Assembly: GCA_020845575.1 (NCBI GenBank)
Contig: JADLFL010000018.1
Coordinates: 1-64,000, forward strand
Source: Acidobacteriota bacterium
Lineage (GTDB): Bacteria > Acidobacteriota > Vicinamibacteria > Vicinamibacterales > Vicinamibacteraceae
Reading direction: 5' to 3'
DNA: 64,000 bases
Numbering within the stretch: position 1 is the stretch's first letter; each line of letters begins with the position of its first letter. Below are positions 4,330 to 24,239 of the stretch, piece after piece. Made by a program: the position numbers and the translations under genes. The notes under the pieces are model-generated. The model saw nothing but the letters and a program-made list of their open reading frames with translations, searched no databases and was not told where the DNA came from.

Positions 4330-5358
4330 ATGCCCGTTGACGACATCAAGGAACGCGTTCGTGCCATCGAGATGGCCGTTGGCCAGATCGAGAAGCAGTT
4401 CGGGAAGGGCTCGATCATGCGGTTGGGCCAGAAGGACGCCGTCGCCATCCCCAGCATCTCCACGGGTGCCATCAGCCTGGACTACGCCCTCGGCGTGGGC
4501 GGTGTGCCGCGGGGCCGTGTCATCGAGGTCTTCGGTCCGGAGTCCTCCGGCAAGACCACGCTGGCCCTGCAGGTGATCGCGCAGGCCCAGATGCTGGGCG
4601 GGATGGCGGCGTTTGTCGACGCCGAGCACGCGCTCGACGCGTCCTACGCGCAGAAGTTGGGCGTGAACCTCGAAGACCTGCTCGTGTCGCAGCCCGACAA
4701 CGGTGAACAGGCGCTCGAGATCGTCGAGGTGCTCGTCCGCTCCGGCAGCGTCGACGTGATCGTGGTCGACTCGGTGGCCGCGCTCGTGCCGCGCGCCGAA
4801 ATCGAGGGCGAGATGGGCGACGCGCAGGTGGGCCTGCAGGCGCGCCTCATGTCGCAGGCCCTGCGCAAGCTCACCGGCGTGGTGGCCAAGAGCAAGACCT
4901 GCCTGATCTTCATCAACCAGCTGCGCGAGAAGATCGGCGTGATGTTCGGCAACCCCGAGACGACCACCGGTGGCCGCGCGCTGAAGTTCTACTCGTCGGT
5001 GCGCATCGACATCCGCCGCATCGGCGCGATCAAGGATGGCGATCAGGTGACCGGCGGACGCACGCGCGTGAAGATCGTCAAGAACAAGGTGGCGCCGCCC
5101 TTCCGCGAAGCGGAATTCGACATCATGTACGGCGAAGGCATCTCGCGCGCGGGCGACCTGCTCGACCTCGCCGTCGATCGCAAGATCGTCGACAAGAGCG
5201 GCACATGGTTCTCGTACAGCGGCGAACGCCTCGGCCAGGGCCGCGAGAACGCCAAGCAGTTCCTCAAGGACAACCCCGCGACCTACCAGGCCATCGAGGA
5301 ACGTCTCCGCAAGGAGCTCGGCCTCGCCGCCCCAACCGCCGAGCCCGTCGCCGGATAG
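4330..5358 (+). CDS. recA: Recombinase RecA
   Basis: The 342-residue product is full length. It carries the Walker A loop GPESSGKT (residues 69-76), the adjacent catalytic-Glu strand [19 protein letters not shown], loop L1 region [30 protein letters not shown] (L2) and [12 protein letters not shown]. It forms the ATP-dependent filament on single-stranded DNA for homologous recombination and SOS signalling. The start is fixed by AAGGAG 9 nt upstream. It has its own promoter with a dyad overlapping the -35 box, so damage control is plausible. It is monocistronic, ending at a stem-loop before a convergent gene. Confidence 0.99.
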
Positions 5359-19152: not shown

Positions 19153-20229
19153 ATGACCATGTTGAAGAACGCCGAACAGGCTCAGCTCATCGGGACATCC
19201 GTTCAGATGACGGAGCTCAGGGAGGAAATCGAGCGCATCGCGCGCACCGACGCGAAGGTGCTCATCACCGGCGAGAGCGGCGTGGGCAAGGAACTGGTCG
19301 CCCGGGCGATCCACGTCCACAGCCAGCGTGCCGACAAGCCCTTCATCGCCATGAACTGCGCCGGACTGCCAGAGACGCTGCTCGAATCCGAACTCTTCGG
19401 GCACGTCAAGGGGAGCTTCACGGGTGCGTATCGCGACAAGCCGGGGAAGCTCGAATCGGCGCACGAGGGCACGATCTTCCTCGACGAGGTCGGCGAGATG
19501 ACCCTGCGGATGCAGGGCCTGCTGCTCCGCTTCCTCGAGACCGGCGAGTTGCAGAAGGTGGGCGCCGACCGCGGCGGGCGCATCGTGAACGTGCGGCTGG
19601 TGGCGGCCACCAACAGGAACCTGCAGGATCTCATCGCGCGCGAGCAGTTCCGCGAAGACCTGTACTACCGCCTCAACGTCATTCACTTCCAGGTCCCGCC
19701 GCTGCGGGAACGGAAGGAAGACATCCCGCAGATGATCGAGCACTTCCTGCGCCGCTACGTGTCATGGGGCGGCCATGCCGTACGCGGGTTCGAGCCCGAA
19801 GCGTTCCACCTGATGGTGGACTACGCCTGGCCGGGCAACGTGCGCGAGCTCGAGAACGTGGTCGAGCGACTGGTGGTGACGGGACGGCACGAGCTCATCC
19901 GCGCGGAAGACCTCCCGACGGAGGTCAAGTCGCAGCGCGGCGTTGGCGTTCGTCCGCGCCGCGAGCGCCGGCGCACGGTGGCCGACGACCTGTACAAGCG
20001 GATGATCGAGCAGCGGGAATCGTTCTGGACCGCCGTGTACCCGCTCTACATGGAGCGTGAGATCACCAAGCAGAACATGCGCGACCTCGTGCGGAAGGGC
20101 CTCGAGGAGTCGCGCGGCAACTACAAGATCGTCTGCCGGTTGTTCAACATGGACGCCGGCGACTACAAGCGGTTCCTGAACTTCCTGCGCAAGCACGACT
20201 GTCAGTTGCCGTTCAAGGACTTCCGGTAA
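19153..20229 (+). CDS. Sigma-54-dependent activator lacking a sensory domain
   Basis: The 358-residue protein starts almost directly at the AAA+ domain: Walker A GESGVGKE (40-47), the sigma-54 contact loop GSFTGA (87-92, Ser replacing the usual Ala of GAFTGA), Walker [11 protein letters not shown] (106-115) and an arginine-finger region [11 protein letters not shown]. After [14 protein letters not shown] comes a basic linker (about 267-280) and a C-terminal domain with [20 protein letters not shown] that looks like a divergent Fis-type helix-turn-helix. With no receiver, GAF or PAS domain, its control must lie in expression level, a partner protein or the C-terminus. No sigma-54 promoter was found nearby. 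The start could also be ATG 19159. Confidence 0.9.
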
Positions 20230-20235
20230 CCGCTG

Positions 20236-22068
20236 TCACCGGGGCGGCGTCGGCGCGGCCGGCGCTCGACAGGCGATGAGCTGCGCGCTCACGCGTGCTG
20301 CTTCCGCGGATCGACCGAGAGCCGTCAACACCTGGGCATAGTGGTCCAACCCGTCACAGAGTGTCGGATCCGTTCGTGTCGCGCGCGACAGGACCTCGGC
20401 TGCCGCTTGGCTGCGTCCGGCCAGGTGCCACACCCACCCAACCGTATCCAGGACGGTCGGCGACGTCTGGCCGAGTCGCATCAGCCTGTCCGCCAAGGGA
20501 ACTGCCGCGTCCACGTCGCCCGCCTGGACGGCGAGGTTGTACGCCAGGTTGTTCAGGGCGATGACATGGTTGGGGTCGATGGCCAGCACCGTACGATAGC
20601 TGGCACGCGCCAGGTCGTGATCGCCACGAGCCGTGTGGACGTCGGCCAGCAGCACATGGCCAGCCACGAACCTCGGAGCCTCGGCGACCACCTGCTCCAG
20701 AAGGTCGCGCACGACGCCCGATTTCGGCTCGAGGGCATTGGCCTTCAGGGCTGCAAGCCATCGCGCGGTGACCGCGTCCGAGGGCAACCCGAGGCGCGTG
20801 CGCATCGCCGCGACTCGGCGAGCCTGAAAGAGCGCCGGCTCACCGCTGGCGTCGTCGATGTCCGTTGCTTCCGGCGACGGCCACGTCCCGTCCGCCGCGC
20901 GGGCCAGTGGATCGCCGAACACCACGGCCTGCCAGCTCAGAAACGGCATCGCCATGTAGAAGCTCTCGGCCAGGGTGTAGCCGCGTGTCCATGCCTCGAA
21001 CAATGTCGCAGGGCGGAATGCCGCGTCGAGATACGGCTCCCCCACCATGGCGCCCAGTCCCGTGAGTCCGGCGTCGAGCCAGTCCACGGCGAGGGCCTCC
21101 GGGCCTCCGGCGTAGAACGAGTCGCGCCGATCCCATCGGCCCGGCATCCACTGGGCAGGCGGAGACGTCAGCGTGCGCGCGTCAGCACTCATGAACGACG
21201 CGGCGACAGCCGCCGGACCGAATGACACCGGCGGTGTACGAGTCCGCGTATCGTTGGAGCCCCAGCTGTAGTAGCCGGTCACGGCACCTTCGGCAGTCGC
21301 AACAGCGGCGGTCTCATCGAACACCGTGGCCAGCCCCTCTCGTCGCGGCGCCACGTCAGCCAACCGGCCTGGCACGTCGGCCAACCAGCGGCGCTCGGCG
21401 CCGCTGCGGTCGGCCGCGCGGCCATCAACCACGAATTGCCATCCTGAGGCGCGTTGTCGGCCACGCGCGAGCAGCGCGCGCGTCGCCGCCGTGGTACTAC
21501 CGTCAAGACGCGTCACCAGGTAGATGTCGTACGCGCGACGATCGAAGGGACGCGGTGTCGCCCCGATCGCGTCTGCCGTGAAATACGGGTTCGGCACGCG
21601 TCCGGCCCGCGCTACGACTGCGCCTGTCATCTGTCGGTACAGGAGGGCGAGTTCACTGTCGACGCTGGCTGATGTGCCATCACGACCGACGGTTCCGCCC
21701 ACGCGCAACGGGAGTCCCGGCATCAGGACGACGAATGTGATGCGATCCGTGGCACCGTTGTCGGCCAGCCACCTGGCGACGGGACCCGCGATGTCCCTCT
21801 CGTACGCATCCCTCGCGATCGTCGAGTCCACCGGAACGTCCACGGTGACCACCTGTGATTCCGGCACGGCACGAAGTCGCCGGTATTCCTCGGCAAGCTC
21901 ACCGCTGGCGGCGACCCGGGTGTTGACGACGAGCAGAACGGAGCGGCCATCGACGTCGGCCGCAGACGCTGCGCCGACCACGCCCAAGAGGGCCACAAGC
22001 GCGCCAAGGCCACGCCGGGCCAGACGCCAGCCGGCACGCGTGGCCCGGGTAGCGGCGGGTCGCGTCAC
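20236..22068 (-). CDS. TIGR03790-family protein with C-terminal TPR domain
   Basis: The 610-residue product has a signal peptide (ARRGLGALVALLGVVGAASA). The TIGR03790 region follows: LVVNTRVAASGELAEEYRRL, ITFVVLMPGLPLRVGG, YDIYLVTRLDG, VTGYYSWGSNDT, and AWTRGYTLAESFYMA with FLSWQAVVFGDPL. Residues from about 470 form TPR repeats (ARASYRTVLAIDPNHVIALN and similar). By its family definition TIGR03790 occurs almost only in genomes with exosortase, so a PEP-CTERM/exosortase system is probably present elsewhere. GTG at 22068 overlaps the small upstream gene by 4 nt (GTGA), which decides this start over a much longer open frame extending toward 23.2 kb. Function is unknown. Confidence 0.83.
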   Translation of the reverse strand: MTRPAATRATRAGWRLARRGLGALVALLGVVGAASAADVDGRSVLLVVNTRVAASGELAEEYRRLRAVPESQVVTVDVPVDSTIARDAYERDIAGPVARWLADNGATDRITFVVLMPGLPLRVGGTVGRDGTSASVDSELALLYRQMTGAVVARAGRVPNPYFTADAIGATPRPFDRRAYDIYLVTRLDGSTTAATRALLARGRQRASGWQFVVDGRAADRSGAERRWLADVPGRLADVAPRREGLATVFDETAAVATAEGAVTGYYSWGSNDTRTRTPPVSFGPAAVAASFMSADARTLTSPPAQWMPGRWDRRDSFYAGGPEALAVDWLDAGLTGLGAMVGEPYLDAAFRPATLFEAWTRGYTLAESFYMAMPFLSWQAVVFGDPLARAADGTWPSPEATDIDDASGEPALFQARRVAAMRTRLGLPSDAVTARWLAALKANALEPKSGVVRDLLEQVVAEAPRFVAGHVLLADVHTARGDHDLARASYRTVLAIDPNHVIALNNLAYNLAVQAGDVDAAVPLADRLMRLGQTSPTVLDTVGWVWHLAGRSQAAAEVLSRATRTDPTLCDGLDHYAQVLTALGRSAEAARVSAQLIACRAPAAPTPPR

Positions 22069-22301
22069 TCCGACCGCACGCCCGATGCCTGCATGGCTGG
22101 TGCGGTACGCGGCGGGTCCACGCCGACAGACGGGGCGATCTCGGCTTTCGTGTGCTGGTACACGTTGTTGGTGGCCGTACGAATCCGCACAGTGTACGCG
22201 ATAGGCAGGACCTCGAGAATCGGGCGTACGGCCGCCAGCACGACTTGCGCGACCCGGTCTTCGTCGTCTGGATTCAGGGATGAGATGAAATGGATGTCCA
22301 T
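22065..22301 (-). CDS. Small hypothetical protein coupled to the TIGR03790 gene
   Basis: I do not recognise this 78-residue protein. It begins MDIHFISSLNPDDEDRVAQV and continues through a compact alpha/beta-looking segment (AAVRPILEVLPIAYTVRIRT) to a Pro-rich tail. It lacks a signal peptide and membrane segments, so it is probably cytoplasmic. Its stop overlaps the GTG of the TIGR03790 gene by 4 nt, the main reason to regard it as real. No Shine-Dalgarno is seen. It might be a regulatory or assembly partner of the downstream protein. Confidence 0.55.
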   Translation of the reverse strand: MDIHFISSLNPDDEDRVAQVVLAAVRPILEVLPIAYTVRIRTATNNVYQHTKAEIAPSVGVDPPRTAPAMQASGVRSE

Positions 22302-22533
22302 GGGGGACGGTCTGTCCCACCGTCAGAGCAAACCTCGTTCCCGCCATGCGCCCCGGATTCCGCCTCACTGATCTACCGCAAATTCCTGACTTTCCCGAGC
22401 AAGGCAGCCAACATCTCAGGAAGTGGCAAGTGTACGTTGTCGGCACACCCTCGGCCAAAAGTCGCGCCATACACGACCTCTCGTCAGCCAGGGTTGACGC
22501 GGGTGTCTGCCACTCCCAGAATGGCAGCGCACC

Positions 22534-23421
22534 ATGGCTACCCTCAAGGGCATCATCCTCGCTGGCGGTTCGGGCACCCGCCTCTATCCGGTCACCCGCG
22601 GCGTCTGCAAGCAACTCGTGCCCGTCTACAACAAACCGATGATCTACTACCCGCTGGCCACGCTCATGCTGGCGGGCATCCGCGACATCCTGATCATCAC
22701 GACGCCCGAAGACACGGCCGCCTTCCAGCGTCTGCTCGGAACGGGCGATGACCTGGGCCTGTCGTTCTCGTACGCGCAGCAGCCCAGTCCTGACGGCCTC
22801 GCGCAGGCCTTCATCATCGGGCGCGACTTCGTCGGCGACAGTCGCGTGGCGCTCGCGCTCGGCGACAACATCTTCTACGGGCATGGCCTGCCGGACGTCC
22901 TCGAGGCGGCGGCCACACGCGCAACCGGCGCGACGGTGTTCGGGTACCTGGTGCGCGATCCCGAACGGTACGGCGTCGTCGAGTTCGATGGGAGTGATCG
23001 GGCCATCTCGCTGGAGGAGAAGCCTGCCACGCCACGATCGCCCTGGGCGGTGACCGGTCTGTACTTCTACGACAACGATGTGCTCGATGTGGCCGCGCAA
23101 CTCCGGCCCTCGCCGCGCGGGGAACTGGAGATCACCGACGTGAATCGCCACTATCTGGAACGCGGGGATCTGCACGTCGAGCGCCTCGGTCGGGGCTACG
23201 CGTGGCTCGACACGGGCACACACGAATCACTGCTGCAGGCATCGCAGTTCGTGCAGACCATCGAGGATCGGCAGGGACTGATGCTCGCGTGCGTGGAGGA
23301 GATCGCCTGGCGCATGGGCTACATCGACGCGGCACAACTCGCTCGGGTGGCGCAGCCGATGCGCAAGAACTCGTACGGTCAGTACCTCCTGCGCTTGCTG
23401 TCTCAGGACGACGCGCGATGA
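22534..23421 (+). CDS. rmlA: Glucose-1-phosphate thymidylyltransferase
   Basis: The 295-residue enzyme matches RmlA over its length: [66 protein letters not shown] and [13 protein letters not shown]. It makes dTDP-glucose from dTTP and glucose-1-phosphate, the first step to dTDP-L-rhamnose and related sugars. Its stop overlaps the rmlC start (ATGA). rmlB and rmlD are not in the window. The region 22302-22533 upstream is a divergent promoter region without clear boxes. Confidence 0.96.
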
Positions 23422-23987
23422 TCGTCCATGCCACGTCCCTGCCCGGCGTGCTCGTCATCGAACCCCGCGTGTTCGAAGACTCGCGTGGTTTCTTCCTCGA
23501 GACGTATCACGCACGGCGCTACGCCGAAGCCGGACTCGACGCGGTGTTCGTGCAGGACAACCATTCACGATCGGTACGGGACACGCTGCGCGGGCTGCAC
23601 TTCCAGGAGCAGCGTCCGCAGGGCAAACTCGTGCGAGTCATCGACGGCGCGATCTGGGATGTCGCCGTCGACATCCGCCCGGACTCGCCGACGTTCGGTC
23701 GGCACGTGGGTGTCGAGCTCACGAGCAGCAACTTCAGGCAGATCTACGTGCCACCCGGATTCGCGCACGGGTTCTGCGTGACGAGCGACGTTGCGCAGGT
23801 GGAGTACAAGTGCACGACGTACTACGACGCGGCCGACGAGCGCGGCATTGCCTGGGACGACCCGCGGCTGTCCATCCCGTGGCCACTGCCGGGCGCGCCG
23901 ATCCTCTCGGCCCGCGATGCAGCGAACCCGACGCTCGACGCGTGGCTGGCCGCTGGCGCCCCGCCGCACGACGCTCGCTCACGCTGA
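23418..23987 (+). CDS. rmlC: dTDP-4-dehydrorhamnose 3,5-epimerase
   Basis: The 189-residue cupin matches Rml[31 protein letters not shown] with catalytic His61, [16 protein letters not shown] (Lys71), and [13 protein letters not shown]. The [10 protein letters not shown] strand holds the catalytic Tyr. It epimerises dTDP-4-keto-6-deoxyglucose at C3 and C5. It is translationally coupled to rmlA. The last few codons overlap the 3' end of the convergent wecB remnant by 9 nt. Confidence 0.95.
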
Positions 23988-24239
23988 CCGTATCAGCGTG
24001 GCAACGATGCGTTCCGCGGCGCGCCCGTCCCAATACTCCGGCACACGCGCGCCCGTGCGGCCCGCCAGGGCGGCGTCGACCGCCGCCGGCACGGCCTGCG
24101 CATCGGTCCCCACCAGCACGTTGGTCCCTTCCGTTACCGTGATCGGCCGCTCCGTCGAGTCGCGGAACGTCAGGCACGGCACGCCCAGCGCCGTCGTCTC
24201 CTCCTGAATCCCGCCTGAATCGGTGAACACCAGCGTCTG
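23979..24239 (-). pseudogene. 3'-terminal remnant of UDP-N-acetylglucosamine 2-epimerase (wecB)
   Basis: Only the last ~85 codons of a WecB-type epimerase remain: TLVFTDSGGIQEETTALG, VPCLTFRDSTERPITVTEGT, NVLVG and a C-terminal helix. These are the conserved UDP-binding end of an enzyme normally near 370 residues. Upstream the frame is closed at once by TAG (24242-24240), so the N-terminal three quarters are gone. The GTG inside the fragment is not a credible start for a working enzyme. It adjoins the UDP-HexNAc dehydrogenase gene, the usual partner of wecB, which suggests a deletion of an intact neighbour. Confidence 0.85.

Follow-up and report, generated by a model that had tools for sequence, protein, structure and literature searches.

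The TIGR03790/TPR gene (20236..22068, minus strand) in this stretch of Acidobacteriota DNA (64,000 nucleotides, hereafter the window) directly follows a gene for a 78-aa protein (22065..22301, minus strand), and the locus raises the question of whether this small protein is a conserved, translationally coupled partner of TIGR03790, as the earlier note had suggested. The coordinates of both genes and their overlap were confirmed, with the GTG start of TIGR03790 at 22068 sharing four nucleotides with the TGA stop of the small gene. The larger gene encodes 610 aa and scores 182.7 bits against the TIGR03790 model (curated cut-off 67); its domain (20932..21942, minus strand) precedes a C-terminal part matched by TPR models, where the PrsT model covers residues 455–593 (20290..20706, minus strand). 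Our literature searches found no paper on TIGR03790, on exosortase with Luteitalea, or on exosortase, PEP-CTERM and Acidobacteria together.

The small gene and its link to TIGR03790

The small frame can be distinguished from a chance ORF by profile-search homologues in 24 of 162 Vicinamibacterales genomes (25 copies, counting a partial one in G045), by start positions that coincide across 20 aligned proteins, and by differences at the three codon positions of 222:147:579 (53 codons, seven family members). Conservation covers the start and the first ∼53 residues, with a variable tail. A single-sequence search detected homologues in 19 of 100 drawn Vicinamibacterales genomes, and in a phylum sample of 297 genomes the gene was found in five, every one of them Vicinamibacterales. 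On these comparisons, the 78-aa frame is a real gene of an unnamed protein family. Searches of Pfam, NCBIfam and the PDB with this family returned no relative. The AlphaFold2 model (pLDDT 77.1) predicts a helix (residues 11–30) and a β-hairpin (residues 36–52) with a low-confidence tail, for which Foldseek and VIA-align gave no convincing match, the best (Z 2.9, MADS-box proteins) being taken as chance. Inspection by eye revealed neither a signal peptide nor a membrane helix.

A leader or chance ORF, with TIGR03790 starting far upstream (the caveat attached to the earlier note), would be consistent with the TIGR03790 frame being open back to 23223 in the window. However, similarity to seven of nine relatives begins only at residues 41–43 of the TIGR03790/TPR protein (residues 9 and 21 in the other two), just past a stretch that by eye resembles a signal peptide, which makes GTG 22068 the credible start. 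The open frame upstream of it is not supported as coding sequence, and this reading, contradicted by where the similarity begins as well as by the conservation and codon-position signature of the small gene, is very improbable.

That the 78-aa protein is a dedicated TIGR03790 partner, be it a chaperone, an inhibitor or a co-translated cofactor, is suggested by gene order. The small gene immediately precedes TIGR03790, in the same orientation, in 10 of its 25 copies, five from the window's genus and five from three other families (four families of Vicinamibacterales in all); in G367 TIGR03790 follows ∼2.4 kb downstream, and in G040 both genes are near contig ends where adjacency is unreadable. 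Other copies precede different genes, however, with PrsT next in L027 and L028 and a PEP-CTERM protein gene, then PrsT, in L036. Nor is the four-nucleotide overlap that favours co-translation in the window conserved: of the 10 adjacent pairs, those in the window and at L039 (1 or 4 nt) are the only ones to show it, while the likely TIGR03790 start in the other eight lies 7 to >500 nt past the small stop. Conserved translational coupling is therefore rejected, the overlap in the window notwithstanding.

Genome co-occurrence is likewise two-sided. TIGR03790 is present in 14 of the 24 small-bearing genomes (p = 3.6e-8, Fisher, 162 genomes, kinship ignored) and exosortase in 18 of the 24 (p = 1.3e-7, by the same test with kinship ignored), and among exosortase-positive genomes only, the association with TIGR03790 is weak (p = 0.028, Fisher, kinship ignored). 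In every genome the profile searches scored those candidates that ranked best in a preliminary pass (the best 34 of 128 in the window's own genome, for instance); among these candidates, TIGR03790 is unmatched in 10 of the 24 small-bearing genomes and the small gene is likewise absent from 10 of the 24 TIGR03790 genomes, two of which (G045 and G091) are included on weak, below-cut-off matches. Completeness is 90% or more for six of the ten genomes in either group. The small gene thus accompanies TIGR03790 in 14 of 24 genomes rather than wherever TIGR03790 is found. Also at odds with a dedicated partnership is the start of the TIGR03790 protein, which by eye is signal-peptide-like where that of the small protein is not. 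On the neighbour survey and the co-occurrence we reject the dedicated partner, to which we give little credence; the link between the two genes probably reflects a common promoter without an obligate complex. What stands of the proposed partnership is a recurrent companion at exosortase loci.

The predicted sigma-54 promoter, the GACTTT element and the activator

The companions of the small gene are a predicted sigma-54 -24/-12 promoter and an enhancer-like GACTTT element, both of which are present in the window. The putative promoter (GGAACGAGGTTTGCT, 22327..22341, minus strand) matches GGNACGN4TTGCW exactly and ends 25 nt before the small-gene start, providing GG-N10-GC with flanking consensus. 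This exact pattern occurs once in the 64-kb window (expected 0.19; at least once in 16 of 100 shuffles) and is not enriched across the window's own genome (10 occurrences against 15 in the reversed control), so that the promoter assignment rests on position and conservation. With the textbook consensus, the best site had a shuffle p ≤ 0.05 in 13 of 20 small-gene upstream regions. The rule was loosened at one position after this test, and with that position freed, 19 of 24 upstream regions had p ≤ 0.05 (combined p 4e-20, overstated because the upstream sequences are related). A significant site is missing in the remaining five of the 24 (L033, L037, L038, L039 and L104); the partial copy in G045, the 25th, stood outside this test and is preceded by a site under the relaxed pattern. 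For control stretches taken downstream at 23 of these loci the combined p was near 1, and 12 TIGR03790 genes without the small gene directly before them (two of which, in G057 and G040, come from genomes with the small gene elsewhere) gave a combined p of 0.96, yet one of the 12, L111, does have a site.

Two copies of the enhancer-like element, AAAGTC (22388..22393, minus strand) and GACTTT (22458..22463, minus strand), lie further upstream and were identified by hexamer count. In regions of 150 bases upstream of the sigma-54 sites, this hexamer occurs in 14 of 22 (leaving out L037, L038 and G045), compared with a shuffle mean of 1.55 and maximum of 6; it was chosen from the same regions used for its test, and in 300 shuffles no hexamer whatever exceeded 12 regions. 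Its density is 4.85 per kb in these upstream regions, compared with 0.165 per kb over the remainder of the loci, and two of the six copies in the window are upstream of the small gene. GACTTT is also found upstream of five of the 12 TIGR03790 genes not preceded by a small gene. A search of the upstream regions for a repeated palindrome (halves of 5–6 bases, gaps of 0–15, at least three sequences) found none.

Three further observations were made on these sites. A perfect 6-bp inverted repeat with a 7-nt loop (22306–22324, minus strand) is located between the sigma-54 site and the small-gene start, coinciding with the expected transcript start. G025 carries two copies (L037 and L038) of a block comprising the small gene, the activator, a nucleotidyltransferase and a sugar transferase, in which the small gene begins with TTG and an exact sigma-54 site is located after it. 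Elsewhere in the window's own genome, GGAACGCCGTTTGCT (L127, G000:C20:36094-36108, minus strand) resembles the small-gene site and lies 65 nt before a frame that by eye resembles a membrane protein with a PDZ domain; GACTTT was not found in the 200 bases upstream of it.

A -24/-12 site with an upstream activator element before an exosortase-linked gene is reminiscent of the PEP-CTERM upstream motifs associated with PrsK/PrsR (PMC1569441, Haft 2006). In that report, these motifs are confined to Proteobacteria and to PEP-CTERM genes, with an element ending in TTTACA, whereas those described here are from Acidobacteriota and precede the small gene; the hexamer most shared among our upstream regions is AAAGTC/GACTTT, and not a motif 1 ending in TTTACA.

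A candidate for the protein acting on this promoter type is encoded at 19153..20229 (plus strand), convergent with TIGR03790 and separated from it by 6 nt. This stand-alone sigma-54 activator is of the PspF type, with its AAA+ domain starting at residue 12 (PF00158 at residues 12–179 of 358) and neither a receiver nor any other N-terminal regulatory domain. A close homologue is present in 23 of the 24 small-bearing genomes versus 51 of 138 others (p = 2.6e-8, Fisher, kinship ignored), and among exosortase-positive genomes only, the association has p = 0.34 (Fisher, kinship ignored). In 8 of the 25 copies a stand-alone activator is divergent from the small gene within ∼1 kb, the distance staying below 0.35 kb at L029–L032, L104 and L107 and below 1 kb at L037 and L038. 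In three more copies (L033, L035 and L039) a GGDEF gene intervenes between the two. In the window's family, rmlA (22534..23421, plus strand; profile match) takes the place of the activator, being divergent from the small gene here and at six other loci (L023–L028), that is, in 7 of 7. Activators beside the small gene elsewhere are 50–59% identical to that of the window, whose closer homologues (61–84%) are usually remote from the small gene (∼40 kb in G003, ∼8 kb in G057); the window's activator thus belongs to a different subfamily from the divergent ones.

The exosortase locus and the predicted fold of TIGR03790

The proximity of activator and TIGR03790, which the earlier note had remarked on, is not conserved. 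In G003, a complete single-contig congener (7,480,314 bases), ∼38 kb separates the two genes, and they adjoin in the window because this block is absent at the junction (20230..20235), with gene order on both sides of it as in G003. The G003 block holds a PrsT-like gene (302 bits, cut-off 312.2) and an exosortase above the TIGR02602 cut-off (130.2 bits), the G016 relative of which scores best with XrtA, below the XrtA cut-off. The best NCBIfam matches of other genes in the block are to an XrtA-system deacetylase and glycosyltransferase (over cut-off), and to XrtA-system tyrosine kinase, ATPase, chain-length and export proteins (below cut-off). Since the small gene and the activator are also 58–59 kb apart in G016 and G056 (with an exosortase between them in G056), the simplest reading of these comparisons is that the XrtA-type/exopolysaccharide block has been lost from this locus in the window lineage; the junction may also be a misassembly. 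Despite the missing block, both the small gene and TIGR03790 are intact in the window. A second difference from G003 is found between rmlC and the UDP-sugar dehydrogenase gene, where ∼7 kb with a PEP-CTERM gene is replaced in the window by an 83-aa end piece of a UDP-N-acetylglucosamine 2-epimerase (23979–24230, minus strand; profile positions 263–346 of 347). This piece, apparently a gene remnant, has no match in the G003 stretch compared, which contains other genes.

Consistent with the earlier note's claim that TIGR03790 is nearly confined to exosortase-bearing bacteria, 23 of 24 TIGR03790 genomes within Vicinamibacterales, the one order covered, have an exosortase (TIGR02602 match at E ≤ 0.001). 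The search for exosortase and PEP-CTERM genes that the earlier note had called for was also productive in the window's own genome (assembly 95.84% complete). Its one exosortase-like gene is XrtC-like, scoring 231.6 bits to XrtC TIGR04151 (cut-off 300) and 94.5 bits to TIGR02602 (cut-off 105.55), and was counted as an exosortase on the basis of a related gene that falls below both cut-offs. It is located on another contig (L042, G000:C51:54000-69727), in a group spanning positions 4569–12452 of L042 that also includes PrsK (over cut-off), a frame which by eye resembles a response regulator, and VPDSG-CTERM proteins. Nine PEP-CTERM matches over cut-off (L131–L139) were obtained from a search that also gave such matches in 2 of 14 control genomes. 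Several of these proteins look genuine by eye, though no XrtA-type exosortase was found in this genome. Of the eight whose frame is readable (all but L134), none has both a sigma-54 site and GACTTT/AAAGTC upstream, and a general PEP-CTERM regulon in this genome is therefore rejected. At L132, an overlapping ORF in another frame is preceded by a 13/15 site and AAAGTC.

The AlphaFold2 model of TIGR03790 residues 38–440 is of moderate confidence (pLDDT 64.6, pTM 0.73, five sequences) and suggests a gingipain-like fold. Foldseek returned no match at E ≤ 0.001, with gingipain K in fourth place (E 0.097, probability 0.33), and 997 of its 1000 top chains were realigned to the model. In this realignment, gingipain R reached Z 18.6 (272 residues, rmsd 3.6) and 18.1, and gingipain K 16.6 and 16.3, followed by separases and TPR-CHAT at 8.6–9.8; these three groups make up the top 12 rows, and every other row is at or below 7.3. 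As Z values of 7 to 8 are typical for models without a clear match according to the aligner's guidance, the fold claim rests on the gingipain rows; those of separase and CHAT are no more than consistent with it. Profile searches with 23 TIGR03790 members gave no C25 family match at E ≤ 1 and neither a credible Pfam family nor a PDB relative, there being no gingipain among the six PDB profile matches at E ≤ 10; a viral structure library searched with the model yielded nothing useful.

Clan CD peptidases have a strictly conserved His and Cys (PMC4626109). Both residue types are missing from the TIGR03790 domain of the window, 17 of the 23 members lack any Cys, and the best Cys and His columns reach only 4 and 14 of 23, respectively. 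Without an invariant His or Cys, TIGR03790, if it works at all, does so other than as a cysteine peptidase of clan CD, at any rate within Vicinamibacterales. The protein therefore differs from gingipain and PorU in these residues and in its lack of a Pfam match, while it is predicted to share their fold; on this model it resembles a pseudo-peptidase that is exported and bears a TPR tail, in the fold family of PorU. A role for TIGR03790 near protein sorting is attractive because PorU, a member of the gingipain family, is implicated as sortase of the T9SS (PMC7468200). Relative to the TIGR03790 family in general, to which this protein belongs by score and by its exosortase-bearing hosts, what is particular here is the sigma-54-linked small gene in front and a fold proposed from a predicted model.

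A possible enhancer-dependent unit

Comparison across the order demonstrates a gene family, a putative -24/-12 promoter, a candidate GACTTT element and a frequent place at exosortase/exopolysaccharide loci. The small gene would accordingly be placed as first cistron of an enhancer-dependent exosortase/exopolysaccharide unit, where it perhaps encodes a cytosolic regulator. In the explanation that we consider best, with a probability of roughly 45%, the small gene and TIGR03790 would form the front of a sigma-54, enhancer-dependent unit at a Vicinamibacterales exosortase/exopolysaccharide locus. An activator, probably one of those that stand alone and have no receiver domain, would bind GACTTT and fire the promoter. 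Made first, the 78-aa protein would stay cytosolic and regulate the locus or serve it as an adaptor. TIGR03790 would be exported and, as a pseudo-peptidase of gingipain fold carrying a TPR arm, would bind without catalysis; its targets may be sorted surface proteins or polysaccharide.

PspA and HrpV are known to exert control in trans over activators that lack a cis-regulatory domain (PMC7057263; PMC4145663). The present locus resembles PspF/PspA and HrpS/HrpV in having an activator of this kind which, in many genomes, is near a sigma-54 unit led by a gene for a soluble protein. By this analogy, trans control of the PspA/HrpV type is the best model for the small protein, which most plausibly would exert feedback on the stand-alone activator, in the manner of PspA with PspF or HrpV with HrpS. 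The likeness is one of genomic association, in that the small protein, unlike PspA and HrpV, is unmatched to the families searched and the activator also occurs without the small gene.

Several observations count against this explanation: the activator family is found in 51 genomes without the small gene, the window's activator is of the other subfamily, upstream regions without a significant site and exact sites without enrichment are both on record, GACTTT precedes TIGR03790 genes that have no small gene, and the TIGR03790 model is moderate. It is possible, with somewhat lower odds, that the small gene encodes no regulator at all and is instead a target of sigma-54 that contributes structurally or metabolically to exopolysaccharide formation. 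Sigma-54 promoters usually drive target genes, and the small gene is often beside rml, sugar-transferase, PrsT or exosortase genes, as would be expected for such a role. Against it are the very small helix-hairpin domain, which has no family match, and the 11 of 25 copies that stand opposite an activator or GGDEF gene. We favour the enhancer-dependent unit with a cytosolic small regulator over this target reading and over the dedicated partner considered above.

The partner interpretation of the earlier note was thus half right, the small gene being a conserved companion at exosortase loci and not an obligate partner of TIGR03790. In our judgement, a better handle on the family than partnership is offered by the promoter and activator, and by the predicted pseudo-peptidase fold of TIGR03790. 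The small gene gives the Acidobacteriota exosortase locus a defined, if predicted, promoter, a candidate enhancer and a candidate regulator, on none of which our literature search found a paper for such a locus. The window genome may also serve as a natural experiment, with the XrtA-type/exopolysaccharide block gone from the locus and the small gene and TIGR03790 intact. TIGR03790 is an old puzzle of exosortase genomes, and a fold without catalytic residues would turn it into a testable question of binding versus cutting, while tying the family to the fold of PorU, the T9SS sortase. More speculatively, TIGR03790 could be an exported, catalytically dead exosortase helper of the gingipain/PorU fold, for example a receptor or scaffold, whose expression in Vicinamibacterales is led by a new family of small cytosolic sigma-54 regulators. 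If this doubtful proposal is true, exosortase sorting and the sortase of type IX secretion would be linked by shared descent.
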